A DNA stretch of 64,000 bases from Methylocystis echinoides (GTDB taxonomy: Bacteria; Pseudomonadota; Alphaproteobacteria; Rhizobiales; Beijerinckiaceae). The position numbers were made by a program, and so were the translations under genes. The notes beneath the pieces are model-generated. The model searched no databases, was not told the origin of the DNA, and was given only the letters and a program-made list of their open reading frames with translations. Below, piece by piece: positions 7,731-19,207 of this stretch. Location of the stretch: positions 3,038,501-3,102,500 of the forward strand of contig NZ_CP156084.1 in NCBI RefSeq assembly GCF_040687965.1. The letters are read 5' to 3'. Within the stretch, counting starts at the first letter, position 1, and every line of letters begins with the position of its first letter.

Positions 7731-8267
7731 CGCAGGCCAATGAAGAGCATCGCGGCGCCGCAGAAGGAAGGGCCCCGCACCAACCGCGAGATTCGCGCGC
7801 GAGAAGTGCAGCTGATTGATTCCGAAGGCAAGAATCACGGCGTCGTTCAATTGCTGGACGCGCTGAGCTTGGCGGAGCAGGCGGGCCTCGACCTCGTCGA
7901 GATCGCGCCGAACTCCACGCCCCCCGTCTGCAAGATCCTCGATTACGGACGCTTCCGCTTCGCCGAGCAGAAGAAGGCCGCCGAGGCGCGCAAGAAGCAG
8001 AAGGTGGTCGAGGTCAAGGAAATCAAGCTGCGTCCCGGCATTGACGAGCATGATTACGACGTCAAGATGAAGGCGGTGCGCCGGTTCTTCGAGGAGGGAG
8101 ACAAGGTCAAGGTGACGTTGCGCTTCCGCGGCCGCGAGATCGCCCACCAGGACATTGGCTATCGTCTGCTCACGCGCGTGAAGGCGGAGACGGCGACCCT
8201 CGCCAAGGTCGAGCTCGAGCCCTCCATGGAAGGGCGGCAGATGGTGATGGTTCTGGCGCCGAGATGA
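7728..8267 (+). CDS. infC: Translation initiation factor IF-3, AUU start
   Basis: 179-residue initiation factor that binds the 30S subunit, prevents premature 50S joining and checks the start codon. It shows the N-domain [18 protein letters not shown] and [20 protein letters not shown], a Lys-rich linker, and the C-domain [15 protein letters not shown] and [15 protein letters not shown] ending in [14 protein letters not shown] place the start at ATT (7728) on the basis of the Shine-Dalgarno spacing. AUU is the classical infC start that lets IF-3 repress its own synthesis by rejecting non-canonical starts. No rpmI or rplT follows, unlike in many bacteria; a secreted protein gene is next. Confidence 0.93.
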
Positions 8268-8316
8268 TAATAGCGCTCGCCGGCGCGCCGGCGGGTTTGA
8301 AGGGGGCTGTTTGAGA

Positions 8317-9225
8317 ATGTCGATTGCGCCGTCCTGGACTGTCATTGCTCGGGCGGCGGGGGCAGCCGTCTTTTTATGCGCCTCTGCGCCGACGGCTCCC
8401 GCACAGATGGCGCTCCCCGGAGCTGTGGAGCCGACGCCCGAAGGCACGGTGACCTCGCCGGGACGACCCAAGAAAAAACTGAGCAGCGGCGAGATGGGGT
8501 CGGCGCGCGGCCCCGTTGTCATGCCCAAGGCGCCCTCTGAGGACACGATCCTCGGCAAGACGCTGAAGCTCGACGGCAATGGCAGCTCCATCGAAGTCGC
8601 CCGCAACGGCTCCGATTTGCAAGCGATAAAACTTACGCTCGTCGGCGACCGACTCACGCGCTCGGGCGAAGCCTGCCGCGTCGATGTCACCGGCATGCCG
8701 CTGAAACTGACGCCGCGCGACAGCGGCGCCGGGCTGCGTCGTTACCAGATCGCCTCCCTGGCGGCCTGTCCCTTCACCTTCGACGTTCTCGACGGCGCCA
8801 TCCTCGTGACCAATGAGGGCAAGGCCTGCGAGATCAAGGAGGCCGACTGCCGCGCCGATCCCAGCGGTCTGTGGGGCATGCCCGAAAACGAGTTCGATCC
8901 GAAGAAGGCCGAGGAAATGCTCGGCGCCCGCGCCAGCGTCGAGAAAACGGTGCGCTCCGATTTCCGCGCGCTCTACGACCGCAACAGCAAGGACAAGCCG
9001 GTCCGCAGCTTCGTGGTGAAGGAGCAGGCGGGCTTTTCGTCCTGGCGCGAGGAAGTCTGCCGCTCCTACGCGAGGGAATCCGATTTCGGCTATTGCGCCT
9101 TGCGCCTGACCGAAGCCCGCGTCATCGCGCTCGGCGCGCAGCTCGCGGGCGGCGTGAAGCTGCCCGAGGGTTATGCGGAGACGGTCGCCGCCGAGGAGAC
9201 CGCTGCAAAGGCGAAGAAAAAGTAA
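8317..9225 (+). CDS. Secreted protein of unknown function
   Basis: 302-residue exported protein. ATG at 8317 is chosen over the in-frame TTG two codons upstream because the GGGGG tract at 8302-8306 lies 10 bases before the ATG but only 4 before the TTG. The signal peptide ends near ASAPTAPAQ. The mature part has a low-complexity linker, then a domain with paired Cys (EACRVD, LAACPF, KACEIKEADC, EVCRSY, GYCAL), so several disulfides are likely, and a Lys/Ala-rich C-terminus. I recognise no named domain. It follows infC by about 50 bases across a GC-rich palindrome and converges on the ABC permease gene. Confidence 0.7.
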   Translation: MSIAPSWTVIARAAGAAVFLCASAPTAPAQMALPGAVEPTPEGTVTSPGRPKKKLSSGEMGSARGPVVMPKAPSEDTILGKTLKLDGNGSSIEVARNGSDLQAIKLTLVGDRLTRSGEACRVDVTGMPLKLTPRDSGAGLRRYQIASLAACPFTFDVLDGAILVTNEGKACEIKEADCRADPSGLWGMPENEFDPKKAEEMLGARASVEKTVRSDFRALYDRNSKDKPVRSFVVKEQAGFSSWREEVCRSYARESDFGYCALRLTEARVIALGAQLAGGVKLPEGYAETVAAEETAAKAKKK

Positions 9226-9246
9226 CGCGCGTCGTCGCAAGGGATG

Positions 9247-9352
9247 CTTCGAGACGCCGCCTCCGGCGGCTCCTCAGCATGAGGAGCGCGAGGGTCTTTG
9301 CATCATAGACCCAGGCCTCATCCTGGGACCGAGCGAAGCTCGCGTCTCGAAG
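9247..9352. repeat. Palindromic intergenic repeat, family A copy 1
   Basis: Two inverted arms, each beginning CTTCGAGACG, continuing with a small hairpin (CCGCCTCCGGCGG in the left arm, GAGCTTCGCTC in the right arm read on the minus strand) and ending with a CCTCAG.ATGAGG-like block. Outer arms are 9247-9256 and 9343-9352. A second copy of the same design is at 33476-33594. It lies between convergent genes, the usual place for REP/BIME-like elements. Confidence 0.75.
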
Positions 9353-9386
9353 GACAATTGCCGCTTCGGCAGTTTGTATGCTCGCC

Positions 9387-10214
9387 TCAGCCGCCCTTGC
9401 GCATCAGCATCCCGCGCGCCGGATCATAGGCGATAATCGCGCCGACCATGAACAGGCTCGTATAAGCCAACACGACGGCGAGCGAGGTCCACTCGACCTG
9501 TTGATAGAAGGCGAAGCGGATGAGCTCCACGGCGTGGGTGAAGGGATTCGCCAGACAGACATAATAGAGCCACGGGCTCGACTCCTTCACGCGCCAGAGC
9601 GGATAAAGCGCGGAGGAGGCGAAGAACATCGGGAAGATCACGAAGTTCATCACGCCCGCGAAATTCTCGAGCTGCTTGATCAGCGACGACAGCAGCATCC
9701 CCAGCGCGCCGAGCATGAGCCCGGCGAGGGCGAGCGCCGGCAGCACGGTGAGATAGCCCCATTTCGTCGGCGGCTCGATCTCCCAGAAGTAAGCAATGAG
9801 GAGAAAAGCATAGACCTGCAGGATCGACACCGCGACGCCCGCCATCAATTTCGCGCCGAGCAGGAACCAGCGCGGAAAGGGCGACACGAGCAAAGTGCGC
9901 ATATTGCCCATCTCGCGGTCGTAGACCATGGAGAGCGACGACTGCATGCCGTTGAAGAGCTGGATCATCGCCATGAGGCCGGGCGCGATATAGACCTCGT
10001 AGAGCACATAGGTCTCATAGGGCGGGATGATCGAGACGCCGAGCACCTGCCGAAAGCCGGCCGCGAAGATGAAGAGCCAGACGAGCGGCCGCACCAGCGC
10101 CGAGACGAAACGCTCGCGCTGATGCAGGAAGCGCAAGCCCTCGCGCCAGATGACGCCCATGAGACAGATGAGATATTGGCGGGGCGTAAAGCCGCCCTCG
10201 CTCGGCGTGTTCAT
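9387..10214 (-). CDS. ABC-2 type transporter permease, LutF-like
   Basis: 275-residue inner-membrane permease with six predicted hydrophobic spans (for example VRPLVWLFIFAAG, VYAFLLIAYFW, VVLAYTSLFMVGAIIAY). It carries the ABC-2 family segment YDREMGNMRTLLVSPFPRWFLLG and the FVIFPMFFASSALYPLWR region. Last gene of a minus-strand run starting with the binding protein; only two bases separate it from the ATPase. The same set (binding protein, beta-propeller, ATPase, ABC-2 permease) is known near PQQ-alcohol dehydrogenase genes and as part of the Methylobacterium lanthanide-transport (lut) cluster. Lanthanide transport here is inferred from the neighbouring lanmodulin gene. Confidence 0.85.
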   Translation of the reverse strand: MNTPSEGGFTPRQYLICLMGVIWREGLRFLHQRERFVSALVRPLVWLFIFAAGFRQVLGVSIIPPYETYVLYEVYIAPGLMAMIQLFNGMQSSLSMVYDREMGNMRTLLVSPFPRWFLLGAKLMAGVAVSILQVYAFLLIAYFWEIEPPTKWGYLTVLPALALAGLMLGALGMLLSSLIKQLENFAGVMNFVIFPMFFASSALYPLWRVKESSPWLYYVCLANPFTHAVELIRFAFYQQVEWTSLAVVLAYTSLFMVGAIIAYDPARGMLMRKGG

Positions 10215-10216
10215 CC

Positions 10217-10963
10217 CTAACCCTCTGAGCGGGCGTCGACGCCCGTGATCCTTGCGAAGGCGGCGCCGATCGTGTCGGCGCCGCTTTGCGCGACAACGTC
10301 GGCAGCGCGCCCCGTCGCGAGCACCTTGCCCTGATGCAGAATGACGACCGGATCATCCTCCGCGATTTCGTCGATAAGATGCGTCGTCCACAAAACGCCG
10401 AGCCCCTCGTCGCGCACGAGGCCGCGCACATGGGCGAGGAGATCGGCGCGGGCCTTGATGTCGAGGCCGACGGTGGGTTCGTCCAGCAGCAACAGGCGCG
10501 GCTTGTGCAACAAGGCGCGGGCGATTTCGACGCGGCGCATCTGACCGCCGGAGAGCGCGCGCGCCTTGTCATTGGCGCGCTCGGCGAGCCCCGCGCGTGC
10601 GAGCGCCTCGAGCCCGAGACGGCGCGCCTCGAGCGGACCGATCCCATGCAGCGCCGCGTGATAAATCAAATTCTGCATGAGGCTCAATTCGAGATCGAGC
10701 GTGCGCGCCTGAAAAACCACGCCGAGCCGCCGCAGCGCCGCCCCCGGCGCGCGCATGACGTCGGCGCCCAGAATCTCGATCTCGCCGCTTCGCGCCGCAT
10801 AGAGCCGGGTGACCAGCGAAAACAGCGTGCTCTTGCCCGCGCCGTTCAATCCGAGCAGCACGGTGAAACTGCCGGGCGCGACGGTGAAGGAGACGTCGTC
10901 GAGCGCCTTGCGCGTCCCGTAGGAATGGCTGACGTTCTTGATGTTGAGGGCGGGGACGCTCAT
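10217..10963 (-). CDS. ABC transporter ATP-binding protein, LutE-like
   Basis: 248-residue ATPase energising the permease encoded immediately downstream. Walker A GLNGAGKST (about 37-45), signature LSGGQMRR, Walker B LLLLDEPTVGLD and the switch His in TTHLIDEIAE are all intact, so it should be active. A single ATPase and single ABC-2 permease imply homodimers of each. It sits 13 bases after the beta-propeller gene. Direction of transport is not decided by sequence: ABC-2 systems commonly export, yet the associated periplasmic binding protein suggests uptake; the lut homologue is implicated in lanthanide uptake. Confidence 0.88.
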   Translation of the reverse strand: MSVPALNIKNVSHSYGTRKALDDVSFTVAPGSFTVLLGLNGAGKSTLFSLVTRLYAARSGEIEILGADVMRAPGAALRRLGVVFQARTLDLELSLMQNLIYHAALHGIGPLEARRLGLEALARAGLAERANDKARALSGGQMRRVEIARALLHKPRLLLLDEPTVGLDIKARADLLAHVRGLVRDEGLGVLWTTHLIDEIAEDDPVVILHQGKVLATGRAADVVAQSGADTIGAAFARITGVDARSEG

Positions 10964-10976
10964 GACCGCGCCGCTC

Positions 10977-11957
10977 TCATTGCGGCGCGACCACGACGCC
11001 CCAGGGAAAGGAGCCGACAGGGATCGACTTTAAGACCTTGAGACTGGCGACGTCGATCACCGAGACGTCGTTGGAGACGCCATTGGCCGTGATGAGATAT
11101 TTCTCGTCCGGCGTGAAGGCCAGATGCCAGACGCGCTGACCCACGAGGAGATATTTTTCGATTTTCTTTGTCTCGGCGTCGATCACTGCGACGCGGTTGG
11201 CGGGGCCCAGCGCCACGAAGGCGCGCTTGCCGTCCTTGGTGATGGAAATGCCGATGGGCTGAATCGCCTCTTTCGACATGCCGGGAATTTCGAAGCTGAT
11301 CTTCTGCTTCAACTCACGCTTGACGGGATCGATGACGGCGACCGTCCCGCCCACCTCGGAGGACACCCAAAGCTCGGAGCCGTCCTTTTTGAATTCGGCG
11401 AAGCGCGGGCGTCCGTCGACGAGGATATTGGCGACGATCTGCTTCGTCTGCGTATCGATGAGATGCGCCATATTTGTCGTTTCGGACGTATTCACGAGCA
11501 GCTTGCCGTCCGGGCTCACCGCCATCCCTTCGGGCTCGACGCCGACCGGAATGTCGCCGATCTGCTCCTTGCGCTTCACGTCGATCATCGTGACGAGATT
11601 GTCGTTTTCATTCGAGACGTAAATCGTGTCGCCGCCGGGGCTGAGCGCGAGCAACTCCGGATCGGGACCGGACGGCAGCTTGCCCGTAAGCTTCAGGGTC
11701 TTGGTGTCGAGCACCTGAATGGCGTCGTCGTCTCCGGCGCAGATGTAAAGCTCGGAGCCGTCCTTGTTGAGGGCGATTCCGCGCGGACGCCGCCCCACTT
11801 TCACCGTCGCCGTGGCTTGCAGCTTGTCGGTGTCGATGACGGTGATGGAGTTGCCCTTCTCGTTGCTGACATAGGCCGTGTAGGCGTTCGCCGGCGGCAG
11901 GGGGGCGCAAATGAGCGCCGCGGCGCAGGGCAGGCACAGGGAAAAGGTTTTCTTCAT
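10977..11957 (-). CDS. YVTN-type beta-propeller protein, PQQ/lanthanide-associated (LutD-like)
   Basis: 326-residue periplasmic protein. The start at 11957 forms an ATGA overlap with the stop of the binding-protein gene and has AGGTTGAA upstream; an ATG four codons earlier is possible. Signal peptide MKKTFSLCLPCAAALICAPLPPANA. The rest is a run of about seven blades with YVSNEKGNSITVIDTDKL, ELYICAGDDD, TIYVSNENDN and similar motifs, the YVTN repeat pattern. Proteins of this type accompany PQQ-dependent alcohol catabolism ABC clusters and correspond to LutD in the lut cluster. Possible role: holding metal or cofactor for the transporter; the biochemistry is not established. Confidence 0.82.
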   Translation of the reverse strand: MKKTFSLCLPCAAALICAPLPPANAYTAYVSNEKGNSITVIDTDKLQATATVKVGRRPRGIALNKDGSELYICAGDDDAIQVLDTKTLKLTGKLPSGPDPELLALSPGGDTIYVSNENDNLVTMIDVKRKEQIGDIPVGVEPEGMAVSPDGKLLVNTSETTNMAHLIDTQTKQIVANILVDGRPRFAEFKKDGSELWVSSEVGGTVAVIDPVKRELKQKISFEIPGMSKEAIQPIGISITKDGKRAFVALGPANRVAVIDAETKKIEKYLLVGQRVWHLAFTPDEKYLITANGVSNDVSVIDVASLKVLKSIPVGSFPWGVVVAPQ

Positions 11958-13132
11958 TTCAACCTGCATTTCGTTTCGGGCTGATCAAAGCCCAGCGTGT
12001 CGAGTTCGCTCACCTGATGCAGGAAGCCTTCCTGCGGGGAGACGGAGACGGTCATGCGGCCGTCGGAGAGAAGGATCGGCTGACGTAACTGCTGGTTCCA
12101 CACGCGCAGCGTCTGCCGCACGCCCTTGAACGCCGCGATCGAGAACTCGGGGCCTATCATGAATGCGCGCAGCTTTTCGGGATCGTCGGAATTGGCGCGC
12201 GTCGCCGCTTCGCCGACCATGCGCATGGCGAGCCAGGCGTTGTTGTCGCGCGCATTCATCAGGCGGCGGAACGTCGCCATGAAACGGTTCTGCAATTGAT
12301 GCGCGCCCCATTGCTCGTGAGCCGCGTCCCAGTTCGTGGGATAGAGGCCGGCCGAACCCGCGACGGGACGCGGATCCCATGTGCGATAGGGAAGATAGCC
12401 GGCGAACACGTCGCTCTCGTCGACGGCGAGCAGCGCGTCATAAGCGGCCGCGTTCTGAGTGAGCGCCGGCATCTGACGCTGCGTCTGCACCGAGCCGGAG
12501 TCGCTGCGCCTCCCGCCGCCGGTGTCTTCATAGACGCGTTCTTCGACGATCTTTGCGCCGAATTTTTTCGCCGCGCGGCGATAGGCCTGCGCCAGCAACT
12601 CGTCTTCCGGATGCGAACCCTTGATGAGCAGCCATTTGCGCCACTGCTTCCAGACGAGATATTGCGCAAGTCCGTCGGCGAGCATGGCGCGCGACGGCGC
12701 CACATGGATCACATTGGCGCGGCAGTCCTCTTCGCGCAGCCGCTCGTCCGGCGCCGACACGTTGAACAGCAGCGCGCCTTTCGCCTTGGCGCGTTCGCTC
12801 GCCGCAAGCAGGCGATCGGCCGAGAGGTCGGCGATGATGAAACGCGCGCCTTTGTCGACGAGCGCATCGACCGCGCCGCCAACGTCGGCCTCCGCATCGA
12901 GCTTCTCGTCGATCGCCTGGTACGATTGATTGGTGAATTTGCCGGTGGTGTTATTGTCCGCCGCGCCGAGAAGGGCGCCGGCGAGCGTGTCGTCGGCGGC
13001 GGGAATGTCGAGAATGGAGAGCGTCTCGCGGGAATGCTCCTGTCGCAGAACGCCGACTTTGAGGGCGAGCGTCTCCGCCGTGGCGGGCGCGGCGGCAAGC
13101 AGCAGAAAGAAAGCGGCGGCGAGGCTTTTCAT
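11954..13132 (-). CDS. Periplasmic substrate-binding protein, PQQ-alcohol/lut ABC system (LutA-like)
   Basis: 392-residue exported binding protein of the type I periplasmic fold, family found with PQQ-dependent alcohol dehydrogenase ABC systems. Signal peptide MKSLAAAFFLLLAAAPATA. Recognisable stretches: FIIADLSADRLLAASERAKAKG, VIHVAPSRAMLADGLAQYL and WRKWLLIKGSHPEDELLA. AGGAGG ends only two bases before this ATG, closer than usual, but no better start keeps the signal peptide. First gene of the four-gene transport operon (binding protein, propeller, ATPase, permease), 64 bases after lanM. The likely ligand is a lanthanide complex, by analogy with LutA and from the neighbour lanM. Confidence 0.82.
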   Translation of the reverse strand: MKSLAAAFFLLLAAAPATAETLALKVGVLRQEHSRETLSILDIPAADDTLAGALLGAADNNTTGKFTNQSYQAIDEKLDAEADVGGAVDALVDKGARFIIADLSADRLLAASERAKAKGALLFNVSAPDERLREEDCRANVIHVAPSRAMLADGLAQYLVWKQWRKWLLIKGSHPEDELLAQAYRRAAKKFGAKIVEERVYEDTGGGRRSDSGSVQTQRQMPALTQNAAAYDALLAVDESDVFAGYLPYRTWDPRPVAGSAGLYPTNWDAAHEQWGAHQLQNRFMATFRRLMNARDNNAWLAMRMVGEAATRANSDDPEKLRAFMIGPEFSIAAFKGVRQTLRVWNQQLRQPILLSDGRMTVSVSPQEGFLHQVSELDTLGFDQPETKCRLK

Positions 13133-13153
13133 GCCTCCTAAATGGCCGCTTTG

Positions 13154-13185
13154 GCGCGCGGGATCAAGTCACGTCTCCCGCGCGC
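13154..13185 (-). promoter_or_regulatory. Hairpin between lanM and the transport operon
   Basis: Perfect 10-bp inverted repeat GCGCGCGGGA (13154-13163) / TCCCGCGCGC (13176-13185) with a 12-base loop, without a T-run on the minus strand. Placed just after lanM and before the binding-protein gene, it could protect the lanM mRNA 3' end or partly attenuate read-through, letting lanM be made in excess over the transporter. Inference only. Confidence 0.45.
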
Positions 13186-13196
13186 TGGCGCGAGGA

Positions 13197-13613
13197 TCAG
13201 CGGGTGACGCGCAGCACCGCCTTGCCCTGCTTGGAAGCGAATTCCTTATCGTCGAGCGTTCCGTCGTTATCCGGATCGGCGCCCTTGAAGAGCGAGGAGA
13301 CAGCCGAGAGGAATTCATCCTTGGTGAGCGTCCCGTCCTTGTCCGGATCGGCGGAGGCGAAGGCCTCCTTGCTCAGGCGGCCCTGGAGCTCCTTCTTGTC
13401 CAGCGTGCCGTCATTGTCCTTCTCGAGCTTGCCGAACAGCGCTTCCGCCGCCTTGTTCAGCTCGTTCAAATCGACGGTCGAGTCATTGTCCGTATCGAGC
13501 GTCGCGACAGGCGAAGCCTTGGGCGCCTTTTTTGCGAGCGCCGGCGAGAGCGGCGCCGCCAGCACCGCGGAAAGCGCGACTGCGCCGGCGAGAAGCAATT
13601 TGTTCACTCTCAT
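13197..13613 (-). CDS. lanM: Lanmodulin, lanthanide-binding EF-hand protein
   Basis: 138-residue periplasmic protein with signal peptide (cleavage after PALA, about 27). Four 12-residue EF loops begin at residues 40 (DTDNDSTVDLNE), 64 (EKDNDGTLDKKE), 89 (DPDKDGTLTKDE) and 113 (DPDNDGTLDDKE). Loop spacings of 24, 25 and 24 are those I recall for Methylobacterium extorquens lanmodulin, and flanks such as KKELQGRLS and the end KAVLRVTR also resemble it. Lanmodulin binds lanthanides with very high affinity and folds on binding. Unlike the M. extorquens protein, loops 1 and 2 lack Pro at position 2 and loop 2 starts with Glu. GGAG is 6 bases before the ATG. Flanked by a TonB receptor and lut-like genes on the same strand. 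Confidence 0.92.
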   Translation of the reverse strand: MRVNKLLLAGAVALSAVLAAPLSPALAKKAPKASPVATLDTDNDSTVDLNELNKAAEALFGKLEKDNDGTLDKKELQGRLSKEAFASADPDKDGTLTKDEFLSAVSSLFKGADPDNDGTLDDKEFASKQGKAVLRVTR

Positions 13614-13644
13614 TGTCAGCTCCGTATTCGGGAAGAACGCCCAA

Positions 13645-13669
13645 GATATATTGGAGCTGCGCGCGCTTC
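13645..13669 (-). promoter_or_regulatory. Possible lanM promoter
   Basis: Between the upstream terminator and lanM there is an AT-rich island reading AATATATCTT on the minus strand; TATATC (13645-13650) could be a -10 box, with a weak CTGGCG -35 about 18 bases upstream. This would start transcription some 24 bases before the lanM ATG. Suggested by position, not proven. Confidence 0.35.
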
Positions 13670-13690
13670 GCCAGTAGCGCGCCGTGCGAC

Positions 13691-13717
13691 AAAAAAAGGC
13701 GGCCCCGAGAGGCCGCC
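13691..13717 (-). terminator. Rho-independent terminator after the TonB receptor gene
   Basis: On the minus strand GGCGGCC (13717-13711) pairs with GGCCGCC (13704-13698) across a 6-base loop, followed by seven T (13697-13691). It is 14 bases after the receptor stop and upstream of lanM, so lanM must be transcribed mainly from its own promoter. Confidence 0.88.
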
Positions 13718-13730
13718 CAGTCAGTCGAGG

Positions 13731-16154
13731 TCAGTAGGTGAACGTGATGCCACCGTATATACCCGTCGGCGGGCCGAGCGAGACCATCCGCGGATTGGTG
13801 TAGGTCAGGAAGGCGATGTCGTTCGTGTCGAACCACGTGCCGAAGGTCCGAGCCCGGGTGTTGGTGACATTCTCGAACAGACCGTAGACCTGCAGGTTCG
13901 GCGTGATCTGGTAAGAGGTCCGCAGATTGAGGAAGGTGTAGGACGGGAGCCTGGCGCCAATGTTGATCTCGTCGCCGCGGATGTAGGAGCCTGCCGTATA
14001 TTGCACGTCCGCGCCTACTCTCCACTGTGGGGTAACCGCGTAGTCGGCGCCGGCCTTGAAGCGGTGGGGCGCAACGGACGACAGATTAGCCCCCGGCGTC
14101 ACCATGATCGAGCCGTTGCCGTAAAGCTGCGCCAGCGGATTATCCGGGGCCCCGAGCACGATGTTCGACCGAAAGGTCGCGATCGTCATCGTATAGTTCA
14201 TATAGGCGGAGAGGCGTTCGTCGCCGTAGCGAAGCGCAACCTCGACGCCTTCGCGGCGGGTCGCGCCGGCGTTGGTGAAATAGCCGCGGCCGTTGATGGA
14301 GCTCGGCACCGCCAGAATGTCGTTGAAGTTGTTCGTGCGGTAGACGCCGGCGCTCCATGTCAGCAGACCGGGGAAATAGTCGCCGCCATAGGGCAGAACC
14401 TTCGGGACCTCGACCGTGCCCCGCATGCCGAGTTCCGTCGTGTTCGATTCGACCTGCTTGAGCGGCGGATCGGCGACGAGGAAGGTGTCGATGAGGCAGG
14501 GACGCGCTGGATCGGCGCAACCGAGCTCCAGCGGCGTCGGCGCGCGATTGGCTTCCGAATAGCTGCCATAGGCGAAGGTGTTCGGCAGCACCTCATAGGT
14601 CGCGCCAGCGATGGGATTGATGCGGGTATAAACGTCCGCGCCGTTGAGCGCCGTGCCGCGCAGGTCGTAAAGGCTGACGCCCGCGCGGTTGAAGCGCGCG
14701 CCCGCGGTGATTTTCAGCCGGTCGGTGACGTCGAGCGTATCGAGCGCATAGACGCCGAGATAGGAGTTGCCCGCGGTGACGTTGACGGGGGCGACGCCGC
14801 TCCCGGGCTCATCGACATAATAGTTGAAGCCGTTCACATAGAGATTGGCCGGTATGACGCCGAGCTCCTGGCTGGCGGCAAAATATGACCAGCCTTGATC
14901 CAGACTCGCGCCAAACGTGATTTTGTTGTGGAAGCCGAAAAAGACGTCCTCATTCGTCGCCTGCACCGTGCCGCCGATCGTGCGCGACCTTGTCCACGTG
15001 CGGTCGACCGCGCCGAGCTGAACCTGCCCGTTGAAGAAATTGGGAATCGAGGTCGGATTCCCGAGATCGTTTTCGCAGAAGGGTTCTGGATCCTCCCCTT
15101 CCTCCGGCGGCTCACACTCGAATTCGGTCGTATTGCCGTCGACGCGGGCCTGATCGAAGGCGCGGTAATGGACGTCGCCAAAAAGCTTCCACGTCGGACT
15201 CGCCTGAACGTTGCCGTTGAGGTCGAACATCGACAGCGTGTTCTTTTGCGACTGCGGCGTCGTGTAGACAGCCCAGGAATTGCGCGTCACGTCCTCCACC
15301 GGCGCGGGACCGGTGCCGTTGATCTTGTTGCCCGCGAGCGTCATGTTGGCGTGAATTTCGCCGCTGTCGCCGCGATAGCCGATGTCGCCGTAGAGCCGCT
15401 TGATATGCGCGCCCGAAAAGTAGCGGTAGCCGTTGTCGCCCAAGGCCTCCATGGCGAGATAGCCGGCGTAGGGGCCGGCCTGCACGCCATATTGGGCGTA
15501 GCCCTGCCGGCGGCCGCGGCTACCGCCGCGCCCGTCGATTTCGAATCCTTGGTAGGTGAAGCCATTCTTCATATCGAGCACCACAGCGCCGCCGATGGCG
15601 TTGAGGCCGAAGAGCGGGTTGCCGGTGACGACAGTGGAGCGATCGATCGCGATATTGGGAATCATATCCCAATAGACGTTGTCGCCCCAGGCCTCGTTGA
15701 TACGGATGCCGTTCTGATAGACGGCGAGGCCCTGCGGCGTGCCGGCGATGGGCGAGGCCACGAAGCCGCGGAAATCCACTTCCGGCTGAAGCGGATTGCC
15801 GGCGACGTCATTGACGCTGACGCCCGGCGCCTGACGAAACAGATTGTTGACGACTTCGAAGCCGCGCGTGTTCTGCAGCTCTTTCGAAGACAGCGTGTAG
15901 GTCGCCGCCGGGACAGCGTATTGGACGACGACGGGCGAGACGGGGGCGACTTCAGCGCTTGGCGCCGGCGTCGGCGTCGCCCGCGCTGCGGCGGGGCGGC
16001 TCGGGCCCTGGGCTGTGGAAGGTTTCGCGGGGCGCGGCGTCGTGGAGCGGAGCGGCGCGCCGCCGACTTCGATGGTCGGGAGCGTTTGCTGCGCCAGCGC
16101 CGTCGACGACAAGAGCACGGCGCTGAGAGCGGTCAAAGATCTGAGTCGAGCCAT
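13731..16154 (-). CDS. TonB-dependent outer-membrane receptor, candidate lanthanide-complex receptor
   Basis: 807-residue receptor: signal peptide MARLRSLTALSAVLLSSTALA, TonB box near TLPTIEV, Pro/Ala/Thr linker, plug domain (about 95-225: RGFEVVNNLFRQAPGVSVND, VDFRGFVASP, NPLFGLNAIGGAVVLDMKNG) and a 22-strand barrel ending GGITFTY with a terminal aromatic. ATG at 16154 is preferred over an in-frame TTG at 16166. A predicted extracellular loop (about 342-366, bases 15070-15130) holds a Glu/Asp/Pro cluster between two Cys (FECEPPEEGEDPEPFCEND). It uptakes a scarce ligand using ExbBD-TonB energy; the adjacent lanM and lut-like genes suggest a lanthanide chelate, in the position LutH holds in the lut cluster. 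Siderophore use is the alternative. Confidence 0.85.
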   Translation of the reverse strand: MARLRSLTALSAVLLSSTALAQQTLPTIEVGGAPLRSTTPRPAKPSTAQGPSRPAAARATPTPAPSAEVAPVSPVVVQYAVPAATYTLSSKELQNTRGFEVVNNLFRQAPGVSVNDVAGNPLQPEVDFRGFVASPIAGTPQGLAVYQNGIRINEAWGDNVYWDMIPNIAIDRSTVVTGNPLFGLNAIGGAVVLDMKNGFTYQGFEIDGRGGSRGRRQGYAQYGVQAGPYAGYLAMEALGDNGYRYFSGAHIKRLYGDIGYRGDSGEIHANMTLAGNKINGTGPAPVEDVTRNSWAVYTTPQSQKNTLSMFDLNGNVQASPTWKLFGDVHYRAFDQARVDGNTTEFECEPPEEGEDPEPFCENDLGNPTSIPNFFNGQVQLGAVDRTWTRSRTIGGTVQATNEDVFFGFHNKITFGASLDQGWSYFAASQELGVIPANLYVNGFNYYVDEPGSGVAPVNVTAGNSYLGVYALDTLDVTDRLKITAGARFNRAGVSLYDLRGTALNGADVYTRINPIAGATYEVLPNTFAYGSYSEANRAPTPLELGCADPARPCLIDTFLVADPPLKQVESNTTELGMRGTVEVPKVLPYGGDYFPGLLTWSAGVYRTNNFNDILAVPSSINGRGYFTNAGATRREGVEVALRYGDERLSAYMNYTMTIATFRSNIVLGAPDNPLAQLYGNGSIMVTPGANLSSVAPHRFKAGADYAVTPQWRVGADVQYTAGSYIRGDEINIGARLPSYTFLNLRTSYQITPNLQVYGLFENVTNTRARTFGTWFDTNDIAFLTYTNPRMVSLGPPTGIYGGITFTY

Positions 16155-16266
16155 TTGCCGGGTCAACGTTAAGGAAATCGGATACTCGGCTTATAGCGCC
16201 AATCCCCGCACCCGTATCGCGGCCACCTGGCCCAGGCGGCAATATTCCCGCGCTGTGGCGCCCTCG

Positions 16267-17673
16267 CTACACTTCTGAAATATAACGCTTTTCGTGGGAT
16301 TGAGTCCTGTGCTGGTCGGGAAAATTTCCCGACCCGTCCGGCCCTGAAAAGGCCGGGGCCGCTCCGGCCGGCGACTCCAGTTTGAGAGAGGCGGAGAGCC
16401 TGACGCCGCCAGCGGGCAGGTTGGCCAGCGTCAACGTCCCGCCGAGCGCCGCGACGCGTTCGCTCATGCCTCTCAGGCCCAGGCCGCCGCCGCCCGGCGT
16501 CGCGGGCAATCCGGCGCCGTCGTCGACGACGTCGACCGTTAAGCGCCCGCCGTCGCGCGTCACGCTGAGGCCGACGCGGTTCGCGTCCGAATGTCTGAAG
16601 GCGTTGGTCAAGCCTTCCTGCGCCACGCGATAGGCGGTGAGCGCCGTCGTTTCGTCGATCGGCCCGCGCGCGCCCTCCAACGCGAGGTCAATCGTCACGT
16701 CGGCCCGCGTCTCGCGCCAGCCGCGCGCCAGCGCCTCCAGCGCGTCGGCGAGACCCATTTCAGAGAGCGCCGCGGGACGCAGCCGGCCGAGGATGCGGCG
16801 GTTGACCTGCTGGAGCGCGGCGATCTGCGCGTCGATCTTCGCGCAGTCTTCGGCCAGAAGCGCCGGATCGGCCCCGGCCGCGCCGACTTTGCGCGCCAGC
16901 GCGCCCACGCCGGCGCGAATGGTGAAAAGGAAGGGGCCGATCTCGTCGTGAAGGTCGCGCGCGATATCGCGCCGCTCCTCGTCCTGCACATGAATCATGC
17001 GGCGCACCAGCCGCCGGTTTTCATCGTCGAGCCGGTTCAGCGTGGCGGCGAGGGCGTTGATCCGCTCAGCGATGGCGATGAACTCGGGCGCGCCGTCGGC
17101 GCCCGCGCGCACGTCATAGTCTCCTTGCTCCAGCCGTCGCAGGGCGCCGGAAAGCGCGCCGATCGGGCTGAGCGTGCGCGAGACGACATAGGAGACGAGC
17201 GCGAAGGCCAAACCGGCGACCCCCGCCGCGCCGATGGCGAGCCAGACGATCTCCTCCCAAATTTCCGCAATCTCGTCGGCGGGATTGGCCGCGATTTCGA
17301 GGGCGCCGAGCGGCGTCGCGATGCGTGTGGCGGGCGGCGCGCGAAAGACCAGCGCGCTGAACCAGTCCGGCGCGGGATTTTTCGCCGGTCCCGCCGCCTC
17401 GGACTCGCCTTCGACGCTGACGCGCACGTGGCGCAACCTGCGCGCGTCGGCGAGTAAGTCGGCGAGTTCGGCCCTGGGGTCCTTCGCGGCGCCGAGGCGG
17501 GGCAGGGTGGCCTCGACGAGGTCGCGCGCGAGCCGCGTCGCGCCGTCAGCCTCGGCGTTGACGCGCGCCCCGGCATGGAGGATCAGCAGGCCGACGCCGA
17601 AAGCGAGGCCCGCGAGGAGGACGCCCCCGAGCAGGAGCGAGAGCCGGGCGCGCAACGACAGACAGTGAACCAT
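16267..17673 (-). CDS. Membrane sensor histidine kinase, NarX/DegS-like
   Basis: 468-residue two-component sensor. The start at 17673 has GGAAGGAAAG upstream. TM1 about 11-33, a periplasmic sensor of about 130 residues, TM2 about 165-190, HAMP, a HisKA_3 dimerisation domain with the phosphoacceptor His242 in ARDLHDEIGP, and a HATPase with N-box LTNAFRHSD, G-box DDGAGLP and GLGLRGM. The C-terminal tail after LKLE is low complexity. It is divergent from its probable partner regulator with 73 bases between starts, and lies upstream of the receptor-lanM-transport genes on the same strand. The signal is unknown; metal status is a reasonable guess from context. Confidence 0.88.
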   Translation of the reverse strand: MVHCLSLRARLSLLLGGVLLAGLAFGVGLLILHAGARVNAEADGATRLARDLVEATLPRLGAAKDPRAELADLLADARRLRHVRVSVEGESEAAGPAKNPAPDWFSALVFRAPPATRIATPLGALEIAANPADEIAEIWEEIVWLAIGAAGVAGLAFALVSYVVSRTLSPIGALSGALRRLEQGDYDVRAGADGAPEFIAIAERINALAATLNRLDDENRRLVRRMIHVQDEERRDIARDLHDEIGPFLFTIRAGVGALARKVGAAGADPALLAEDCAKIDAQIAALQQVNRRILGRLRPAALSEMGLADALEALARGWRETRADVTIDLALEGARGPIDETTALTAYRVAQEGLTNAFRHSDANRVGLSVTRDGGRLTVDVVDDGAGLPATPGGGGLGLRGMSERVAALGGTLTLANLPAGGVRLSASLKLESPAGAAPAFSGPDGSGNFPDQHRTQSHEKRYISEV

Positions 17674-17746
17674 GGCCACTTTCCTTCCAGAGGCCGGGAC
17701 TTTACGAAGGGCGCGCCTTTGGTCAATCTCGCTCTCGAGGAGCACG
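17674..17746. promoter_or_regulatory. Divergent control region of kinase and regulator
   Basis: The 73 bases between the two start codons must hold both ribosome binding sites (GAGGAG at 17737-17742 for the regulator; GGAAGGAAAG on the minus strand for the kinase) and probably overlapping promoters, so the pair is likely co-regulated. No operator repeat is obvious. Confidence 0.45.
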
Positions 17747-18364
17747 ATGCGCGTTCTGATTGTCGACGATCATCCCATCATTGTCGCCGGCTGCGCCGCC
17801 ATGCTGGCGGGCGAAGGCGACATTGACGTTGTCGACGCGCGCGATGCGGAGACGGGCCTCGCCGCCTTTATCGCGCACAGGCCCGACGTCACGGTCGTCG
17901 ACATCGCCATGCCAGGCGTCTCGGGGCTGGAATTGACGCGCCGAATTTTGCAGGAGGATCCCGCGGCCCGCATCGTCGTCTTCAGCATGAACGACGACCC
18001 GATCTTCGCCGCGCGCGCCATCGAGGCCGGCGCCAAAGGCTACGTCACCAAGAACGACGACCCGTATCTGCTGCTGAAGGCCGTGCGCGAAGTTGCGGCC
18101 GGCGGCGTGTTTTTGATGCCGAAGATCGCCAATCAGCTCGCCTTCGAGAAAGGCGGCGGCGCCGGCCCGCTCGGGTCGCTCACGGCGCGTGAGCTCGAGA
18201 TCTTGCGCATGCTCGGATCTGGCCTCGGCATGGCTGAAATCGCCGAGGCGACGCAGGTGTCCTACAAGACCATCGCCAACAGCTGCTCGATCATGAAGCG
18301 CAAGCTCGGCGCCCGCACGCCGATGGAGCTGATGAAAATCGCGCTGGAGCAGAAGCTCGCGTAA
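17747..18364 (+). CDS. LuxR/NarL-family response regulator
   Basis: 205-residue DNA-binding regulator. Receiver domain with the acidic pocket D7/D8, phosphoacceptor D52 (VVDIAMPG), Ser80 and Lys102 (GYVTKND), all intact, followed by a NarL-type helix-turn-helix (LTARELEILRMLGSGLGMAEIAEATQVSYKTIA split by a short turn). ATG 17747 is used because it opens the receiver MRVLIVDDHP and has GAGGAG four bases upstream. Divergent from the HisKA_3 kinase, the class that pairs with NarL regulators. By position it may control the receptor, lanM and transport genes; targets are not shown by the sequence. Confidence 0.9.
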   Translation: MRVLIVDDHPIIVAGCAAMLAGEGDIDVVDARDAETGLAAFIAHRPDVTVVDIAMPGVSGLELTRRILQEDPAARIVVFSMNDDPIFAARAIEAGAKGYVTKNDDPYLLLKAVREVAAGGVFLMPKIANQLAFEKGGGAGPLGSLTARELEILRMLGSGLGMAEIAEATQVSYKTIANSCSIMKRKLGARTPMELMKIALEQKLA

Positions 18365-18389
18365 GGCCTGTCCATGCGGCCATGCGCGG

Positions 18390-18977
18390 TCACGCCGGGA
18401 CGATGGTCTCGCGCTCGGTCAGCAGATAATCGAGCCGTTGGTCATGCGGCTCAGTCGGGACGTGGTCGGTCTCCTGGCAGGAATAGGCGACGCCAATCGC
18501 CGTGACCTGTTTCCTCGATCTCAGTTCGGAGAGGGTCGCGTCGTAAATGCCGCCGCCATAGCCGAGGCGAAAGCCCCGCCGGTCGAAGGCGGCGAGCGGC
18601 GAGAAGAGGATGTCGGGATCGCGCGCGATCTTGTCCTCGGAAGGCTCGGACAGGCCAAAGGGCCCCTTCACCAGATCGTCGCCGGGCGTGAAGTCGCGAA
18701 ACACCAGCGGATGCCTCACTTTGTGCATGACCGGCAGGACGACGCCATAGCCCCTTGCGGCGAGCGCGTCGATCAGCGGGCGCGTGTTGAGCTCGCTGCG
18801 GATCGGCCAATAAACCGAGATGACCGGCGTGGCCACGCCGGCCTTGGCGGCGATCTTCGTGACCAGCGCCAGCCCCCTTGCGGCGGCGGCGGCCGCGGCG
18901 GCATGGGCTTCCTGCGGGGTCACGAGGTCGCGGCGCGCCAGGGCATGCCGGCGCAGGTCGGTTTTCGGATCGGTCAT
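18390..18977 (-). CDS. fau: 5-formyltetrahydrofolate cyclo-ligase
   Basis: 195-residue ATP-dependent enzyme converting 5-formyl-THF to 5,10-methenyl-THF, returning a storage folate to the C1 pool, which matters in a methylotroph. It shows VISVYWPIRSELNTRPL, LVKGPFGLSEPSE and the family signature FRLGYGGGIYDATL near residue 150. The ATG at 18977 gives the normal length; the open frame upstream runs through the 6S RNA region and is not coding. The gene directly follows the 6S RNA on the same strand, the widespread ssrS-ygfA arrangement. Confidence 0.9.
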   Translation of the reverse strand: MTDPKTDLRRHALARRDLVTPQEAHAAAAAAAARGLALVTKIAAKAGVATPVISVYWPIRSELNTRPLIDALAARGYGVVLPVMHKVRHPLVFRDFTPGDDLVKGPFGLSEPSEDKIARDPDILFSPLAAFDRRGFRLGYGGGIYDATLSELRSRKQVTAIGVAYSCQETDHVPTEPHDQRLDYLLTERETIVPA

Positions 18978-19010: not shown

Positions 19011-19162
19011 GCGCGGGCCACGTGAGCCGTGGGACGTCGATCCCGGGAACCTACAACGTAGGTGGGCGCCGTATAGCCAAGCCCACGGGCAAGGCCAGGG
19101 ACAGCTCCCTTCAGGATCGATAAGGCCCCGGGGAATAAAGTCCTGCACGCACCCCGCAGCGC
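19011..19162 (-). ncRNA. ssrS: 6S RNA (ssrS), regulator of RNA polymerase
   Basis: About 152 bases directly upstream of fau, where proteobacterial 6S RNA genes usually lie. On the minus strand the ends pair (GCGCTGCGGGGTGCG at 19162-19148 with CGTGGCCCGCGC at 19022-19011), followed by the motif CCCCGGGGCCTTATCGATCC, a small AGGGAGCTGTCCCT hairpin, an apical GTGGGC/GCCCAC stem, a CCTACGTTGTAGG hairpin and CCCGGGATCG that pairs back with CGATCC. This closing stem, interrupted central bubble and apical stem is the 6S plan that mimics an open promoter and traps sigma70 polymerase. Ends are approximate; covariance-model scoring was not possible. Confidence 0.72.
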
Positions 19163-19207
19163 CGCTCTCAACATTTAGCGCAAGGCGCGGCTCGGCGCCA
19201 GCGCGCT

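Follow-up and report, generated by a model that had tools for sequence, protein, structure and literature searches.

A lanthanide-uptake locus of Methylocystis echinoides with a linked candidate sensor pair of the MxaY/MxaB type

Introduction

How methanotrophs sense lanthanides is an open question, which a locus in the genome of Methylocystis echinoides (NCBI RefSeq assembly GCF_040687965.1) raises in a specific form. The stretch analysed here, referred to as the window, comprises 64,000 nucleotides of contig NZ_CP156084.1 (positions 3,038,501 to 3,102,500 of the forward strand), and at window positions 9387 to 18364 it carries genes for lanthanide uptake (lut) and lanmodulin (LanM), headed by a histidine kinase and a divergent response regulator. 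Does this pair serve uptake, or is it a neighbour by accident? We regard the region as probably the lut locus of an alphaproteobacterial methanol or methane oxidiser with an uptake-linked two-component pair of the MxaY/MxaB type, likely to sense lanthanide status. This reading draws on gene identities, gene order and conservation, on the kinship and domain likeness of the kinase, and on a hairpin and upstream elements, all of which were observed directly.

Gene content of the locus

An original prediction made from the letters of the window alone had placed eight genes here in a compact lanthanide-uptake locus with lanmodulin and a candidate sensor pair, and all eight frames were present with the coordinates and strands given for them. 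Seven genes, spanning 17673 to 9387, lie on the minus strand, and the regulator stands divergently on the plus strand at the head of the locus:

17747..18364, plus strand: NarL/LuxR-type response regulator, ATG 17747 the likely start, Pfam Response_reg and GerE
16267..17673, minus strand: membrane sensor histidine kinase, HisKA_3 and HATPase_c, start ATG 17673 inferred from orthologues
13731..16154, minus strand: lutH, TonB-dependent receptor, Pfam Plug and barrel, frame open from TTG 16166, ATG at 16154
13197..13613, minus strand: lanM, lanmodulin, NF053806 at 149.3 bits (cut-off 135), signal-like N-terminus
11954..13132, minus strand: lutA, periplasmic binding protein, TIGR03863 at 463.3 bits (cut-off 413.6)
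10977..11969, minus strand: lutB, YVTN beta-propeller associated with PQQ catabolism, TIGR03866 at 512.2 bits (cut-off 287.3)
10217..10963, minus strand: lutE, ABC ATPase, TIGR03864 at 336.7 bits (cut-off 302.25)
9387..10214, minus strand: lutF, ABC-2 type permease of the PedC family, TIGR03861 PedC at 396.3 bits (cut-off 241.35)

Five of the eight proteins (LanM, LutA, LutB, LutE and LutF) thus exceed curated NCBIfam cut-offs; LutH, the kinase and the regulator match general families only and were named from Pfam domains and comparison. The identical eight-gene set recurs in two more genomes of the genus sample (loci L117 and L118), and its assembly is therefore not due to chance.

The importer components LutA, LutE and LutF and the receptor LutH, the core of a lut cluster, occur here together; the full ten-gene set of Methylorubrum extorquens AM1, to which LutC, LutD, LutG and LutI also belong, does not. 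With queries from one Methylobacterium-type locus (L093) and no positive control, the genome gave no match to LutC and an unconvincing best match to LutD (E = 0.06), and its LutG match lies outside the locus at C1:1353323-1353907 (L259; E = 3e-32, 37%), beside a xoxF copy. The beta-propeller, predicted to be LutD-like, matches TIGR03866 and is the YVTN protein named LutB in PMC9291206, so that a LutD identity is rejected. On these results the earlier description of the cluster as complete, and of the propeller as LutD-like, was wrong in detail.

Lanmodulin is recognised by a spacing of 12 to 13 residues between its EF loops. The window protein has four such loops, at residues 40, 64, 89 and 113 (spacing 12-13-12), in addition to its equivalog-level score, and its closest solved relatives in the PDB are the lanmodulins 8fns and 6mi5. 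A proline at position 2 is found in loops 3 and 4, not in loops 1 and 2; the Methylobacterium-type LanMs of L093 and L094 have it in three of four loops.

It is very improbable that the cargo of the locus is a different metal or chelate, for instance iron, and that its lut-like names mislead. The receptor does score weakly for siderophore and haem models, below their cut-offs. Against this, LanM exceeds its equivalog cut-off, and the LutABEF families have lut and ped members important for lanthanide-dependent growth in M. extorquens and Pseudomonas putida (PMC7391723; PMC6839425). The 4.35-Mb genome, moreover, holds its only strong matches here: LutA is matched once, LutH has two other matches that are N-terminal only, and LanM a second, partial one (E = 8e-5). 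The genome also has lanthanide-type methanol dehydrogenase motifs. Of its seven PQQ alcohol dehydrogenase genes, one is MxaF-like with the motif WDYA; in five the final A is replaced by D, and in the last the motif is missing. We take this D to be the lanthanide-type residue.

The kinase/regulator pair

The kinase probably starts at ATG 17673 rather than GTG 17745, because its orthologues align from 17673, leaving a divergent gap of 73 bp to the regulator at ATG 17747. Its HAMP score of 24.3 bits falls just below the Pfam cut-off of 25. The features of an MxaY/MxaB-type pair, namely a HisKA_3 kinase, a LapD/MoxY-like periplasmic domain and a NarL-type regulator, are all present. The periplasmic domain (residues about 31-144) was assigned from weak family-wide matches and from its fold, the window protein itself remaining below the Pfam cut-off. 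With Foldseek alone, no solved structure matched this domain convincingly; the LapD match came from a second look. The 50 matches listed for the full-length kinase are to other kinases and kinase cores and say little on the sensor part. Across the 41 kinases compared, and counting D or E, the acidic residues E41, E134 and E137 are conserved in 40, 41 and 40, respectively; D133 is shared less strictly.

The kinase is a paralogue, judged by comparison, of the MxaY-type kinase beside the genome's own mxaF, to which it is 38% identical. The mxaF region is already occupied by another kinase/regulator pair (L097), whose regulator is 52% identical to that of the window; regulator orthologues in L117-L119 reach 85-90%. 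In the kinase tree the window kinase falls in the same 32-row clade as mxaF-linked kinases, in a separate subclade. The tree was built from loci partly chosen for holding LutH, LutA or kinases and omits three long-branched rows (L098, L154, L175) and rows with an internal stop (L182, L205); L168 is absent.

Recurrence of the pair beside LutH

Adjacency was counted in a family sample of 149 genomes, which are related and hence not independent. Strong places were defined by cut-offs of 400 bits for LutH, 115 for the kinase, 90 for LanM and 340 for LutA, with at most ten kinase and six LutH candidates scored per genome; the counts drop weak or split matches, such as G003 and one two-piece LutH of G049, and leave out a partial LutA of 415 bits that stands at the start of a contig in G050. 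Of the 53 strong LutH places, 22 have a kinase within 5 kb (in 21 of 48 genomes), as do 8 of 49 LanM places and 11 of 85 LutA places; a simple chance estimate for a random position is about 0.6%.

These counts bear on the possibility that the pair controls genes for methanol dehydrogenase or another PQQ enzyme in response to alcohol or apo-XoxF, and stands beside uptake genes, themselves otherwise controlled, by accident. The close paralogue in the mxaF region would fit such a role, as would kinases of the wider group found by PQQ dehydrogenase genes (L115, L137, L141, L175) and the 31 of 53 LutH places that have no kinase nearby. Yet the 21 genomes with adjacency span ten genera, their kinases belong to several separate clades, and the frequency is far above the chance estimate, which makes an accidental association unlikely. 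Control of the lut locus by the pair is plausible.

The complete arrangement is narrower. A strong LutH with both kinase and LanM within 5 kb occurs in three of the 149 genomes (G000, G135, G017), which are three of the six sampled members of the window's genus, the order being confirmed in L117 and L118. Elsewhere the parts are variously combined: G114 has the arrangement without lutH, G057 has no more than the kinase and LutABEF, in G089 LutABEF is separate from LanM and LutH, and G113 has LutFEBA-LutH-kinase/regulator with no LanM in the stretch. In four genomes of genus g42 (G042, G078, G128, G146) LutFEBA-LanM is accompanied by one or two kinase/regulator pairs, at a distance of about 10 kb in G146, and lutH lies at another place. 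G105, also of g42, has LutA-LutH, and its 15-kb stretch gave no kinase match. In G042 two pairs from different subclades stand adjacent to each other and next to lanM-lutABEF (L122, 9480-14413). Outside the family, TIGR03863 is matched in 55 of 398 genomes of a phylum sample; 11 of the 40 LutA stretches fetched hold a kinase match (including L139, L141, L142 and L146), and L168, L169 and L172 hold both kinase and LutH.

The pair had been predicted to distinguish this locus, a claim that does not survive, as related pairs adjoin LutH or LutABEF in many relatives as well as in Bradyrhizobium and Pseudomonas-type ped loci. The same prediction had specified that it would be refuted if the transport genes accompanied a PQQ system not concerned with lanthanides and lanM were unrelated; nothing of that kind has emerged so far, LanM lying within 5 kb of LutA at 12 of its 49 places.

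The remaining 37 of 49 LanM places, however, are not within 5 kb of LutA, and LutABEF and LutH also occur without lanM.

Transcription units and upstream elements

The frames LutA-LutB-LutE-LutF overlap or lie 2-13 bases apart, and wider gaps separate lanM from lutA (64 bases), lutH from lanM (117) and the kinase from lutH (112). Four features were found in or near these gaps and upstream of the kinase:

13697..13718, minus strand: intrinsic-terminator-like hairpin in the lutH/lanM gap, a 9-pair stem followed by a T-run
13125..13195, minus strand: lanM-lutA stem-loop region, fold z = -2.9, its 3' part conserved
16240..16300 (approximate limits), minus strand: element upstream of lutH, an imperfect inverted repeat with core CGTTATNTTTCA at 16276-16287
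17699..17726, minus strand: promoter-like site TTGACN-16-TAAAGT for the kinase, found by scan

The lutH-lanM hairpin (fold z = -3.6) ranks first of 17 terminator-like sites in 8200-18600, for which shuffled sequences give 7.9. A hairpin stands at the same place in L118 and, with a weaker T-run, in L117, and thus in three of three loci with the window's arrangement, to which the examination of terminators was confined; lutH also precedes lanM in L093, L094 and L116. Because of this hairpin we reject a single eight-gene operon, as the earlier picture of one island had implied; lutH and lanM probably belong to different transcription units. Opposite behaviour of the two genes in published work agrees with such a division, lutH being repressed by La in AM1 (PMC7391723) and LanM strongly raised in Methylocella (PMC9291206). 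On the other hand, LanM was not confidently detected in Methylosinus trichosporium OB3b (PMC12482762), and lanM was unchanged in one AM1 transcriptome (reported in PMC9291206).

The core CGTTATNTTTCA overlaps the 3' end of the kinase frame and is found in the window, in L117 and L118, and also ahead of lutH in G114 (L076), where lutH is unlinked. Scanning 36 lutH places outside the window gave these three exact occurrences and 33 with at least three mismatches. The motif is limited to four related genomes, and none of the mxa or xoxF stretches that were fetched contains it exactly, so that we draw no regulon from it; the region itself (16240-16300) folds no better than shuffles (z = 0.24). In the lanM-lutA region CTTGATCCCGCGCGCC is exact in L118 and L119, not in L117. 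The scan for the kinase promoter-like site found one where shuffles give 1.0, and the site with its 16-base spacer is kept in four of four orthologous loci examined.

An Rfam search at gathering thresholds gave 6S RNA only (RF00013, window 19012-19165, minus strand, 69 bits), outside the locus, and an RNA element within it is rejected, as is a tRNA-linked insertion, the window having no tRNA.

Comparison with known systems

The AM1 lut cluster (lutA-lutI with lanM) likewise holds homologues of LutA, LutB, LutE, LutF, LutH and LanM in one locus. The AM1-like loci L093 and L094, however, have the order A-B-[C-D]-E-F-[G]-H-LanM, where C, D and G were identified from their positions relative to the AM1 list of PMC7391723; the window differs in this order, in its want of a LutC or LutD match and in the placement of LutG elsewhere in the genome. 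Unlike the window, L093, L094, L096 and L116 show no kinase/regulator match in their 20-kb stretches.

MxaY/MxaB, a known rare-earth switch at the ends of mxa clusters in Methylocella, Methylocystis, Methylosinus and M. buryatense, shares with the window pair its kinase type, LapD/MoxY-like domain and divergent regulator, but adjoins mxa where the window pair, at 38% identity and in its separate subclade, adjoins lut. The Pseudomonas ped cluster (pedC-B-A2-A1-S2-R2), whose PedS2/PedR2 respond to lanthanides (PMC6115532; PMC12997753), resembles the window in setting four ABC genes beside a HisKA_3 kinase and a LuxR-type regulator. In our tree PedS2 is represented by the ped-type locus L192 of Pseudomonas borbori (LutFEBA-kinase-regulator, among the matches listed). 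That locus differs in having no LutH or LanM match and a kinase without a LapD_MoxY_N match at E <= 1; its kinase is in a different deep clade, and a grouping of the window kinase with ped-type kinases is rejected. In TonB_Ln-mxcQE of Methylobacterium (M. aquaticum 22A) a LutH-type receptor also stands beside a kinase and regulator (PMC9260416). A LutH-kinase-regulator row is found, among the matches listed, in Methylobacterium platani (L187), its mxcQE identity being suggested by the arrangement; there is no LutABEF match in that stretch, and its kinase lies in another clade than the window's, so that orthology with the LutH-linked kinase of Methylobacterium is likewise rejected.

A further comparison is with Bradyrhizobium loci (L177-L183 and L185, among the matches listed), in which a divergent pair stands with LutABEF in eight of eight and with LutH in seven of eight. 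Their kinases are 40-45% and their regulators 53-58% identical to those of the window; they differ in showing no LanM match in the stretch and in having LutABEF on the same side as the regulator, except that in L185 these genes are divided between the two sides. In the contig-wide scan none of the 80 matches listed is titled Methylocystis or Methylosinus, and past about the first 16 most cover the kinase core only.

The Bradyrhizobium loci bear on what the kinase may read. Possibly, though we think it rather unlikely, the kinase itself binds no metal, and its LapD-like domain responds to a protein (LanM, LutB or XoxF) whose state reflects lanthanide supply. The periplasmic domain of LapD, the fold match, works through a protein partner. 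Deletion of lanM in M. aquaticum alters mxcQE expression (PMC9260416), and lanM sits in the same locus here. The Bradyrhizobium loci nevertheless keep kinase, regulator, LutABEF and, in seven of eight, LutH with no LanM match in the fetched stretch, and the near-invariance of E41, E134 and E137 also speaks against this reading.

The components, and the general idea of uptake genes near a kinase, are known singly from TonB_Ln upstream of mxcQE (PMC9260416), ped (PMC12997753) and MxaYB at mxa (PMC9291206). Our literature search, which covered few subscription journals and some sources in part, turned up no account of an MxaYB-type pair inside a lut/lanM locus or recurring beside LutH.

Neighbouring genes and the rest of the genome

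At window positions 8311-9225 (plus strand), convergent with lutF, an exported-looking protein of 304 amino acids has no NCBIfam or Pfam match at E <= 0.001. Its gene is conserved next to lutF in L117-L120 and L126, and in part at the edge of L108, and it may be a partner of the lut locus that has gone unrecognised.

AMO-family matches, MxaF and kinship make it very probable that the host is an alphaproteobacterial methanotroph. The AMO-family gene occurs at two places with an equal score of 359.4 bits (L260, C1:2150832; L261, C1:3280913), perhaps in duplicate pmo operons. Of three XoxF copies (L032, C1:600805; L033, C1:1356142; L034, C1:1531544), the first two are each 97.5% identical to the third over about 600 residues, suggesting recent duplication or gene conversion. 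Copy L034 (775-3255; C1:1530818 on) is in frame with an N-terminal part of 218 residues, at whose end stand a membrane-anchor-like stretch and a linker rich in Ala and Pro. This part is matched in two of 149 genomes, the host's own included, and G017 shares residues 155-219 only, in a 691-amino-acid frame; L034 is thus a possible membrane-anchored XoxF, and its first 150 residues may be a separate gene.

Plasmid searches, from which records very near the window were left out, gave named context and no match of at least 60% identity. Plasmid pMNOD02 of Methylobacterium nodulans (L263) carries in a row a TonB receptor (42% identical to LutH), a response regulator and a LanM-like EF-hand gene, near an mxa-type cluster.

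Proposed working and significance

The working model combines these observations with the published roles of LutH, LutABEF/PedA1A2BC, MxaY and PedS2. In it LutH would be the outer-membrane entry for a lanthanide chelate, LanM would serve as periplasmic buffer, and LutA and LutB would hand the ion to LutEF for passage into the cytoplasm. Through its LapD/MoxY-like domain the kinase would monitor lanthanide status in the periplasm, directly or by way of a protein, and the divergent regulator would adjust lutH and probably methanol dehydrogenase genes. The terminator-like hairpin after lutH would allow lutH, repressed by lanthanide in AM1, and lanM, induced in several species, to be set separately. 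We infer the sensing of the metal, the ligand, the target genes, the sign of control and lanthanide use by the strain. The literature disagrees on the site of sensing: the ABC importer is dispensable for pedE repression in P. putida (PMC6839425), whereas the ion must enter the cytoplasm according to PMC7391723 and PMC12997753.

More tentatively, and with the odds against it, alphaproteobacterial lanthanide users may have a lineage of uptake-dedicated two-component systems, distinct from MxaYB, that was linked to lutH/lutABEF before lanM joined in the window's lineage, and whose LapD/MoxY-like domain senses lanthanide directly, by E41, E134, E137 and, to a looser degree, D133, and adjusts lutH in opposition to lanM by way of the upstream elements and the terminator.

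According to PMC9291206, M. trichosporium OB3b and M. buryatense have no close homologues of mxcQE and mxbDM. A pair of the MxaY kind that stands beside the receptor and lanmodulin, and recurs near LutH, is a concrete candidate sensor that can be deleted and assayed. Should the kinase prove to sense the metal, its periplasmic domain, which is small, would amount to a natural sensor module for rare earths, and the locus may show how such cells sense rare-earth metals.

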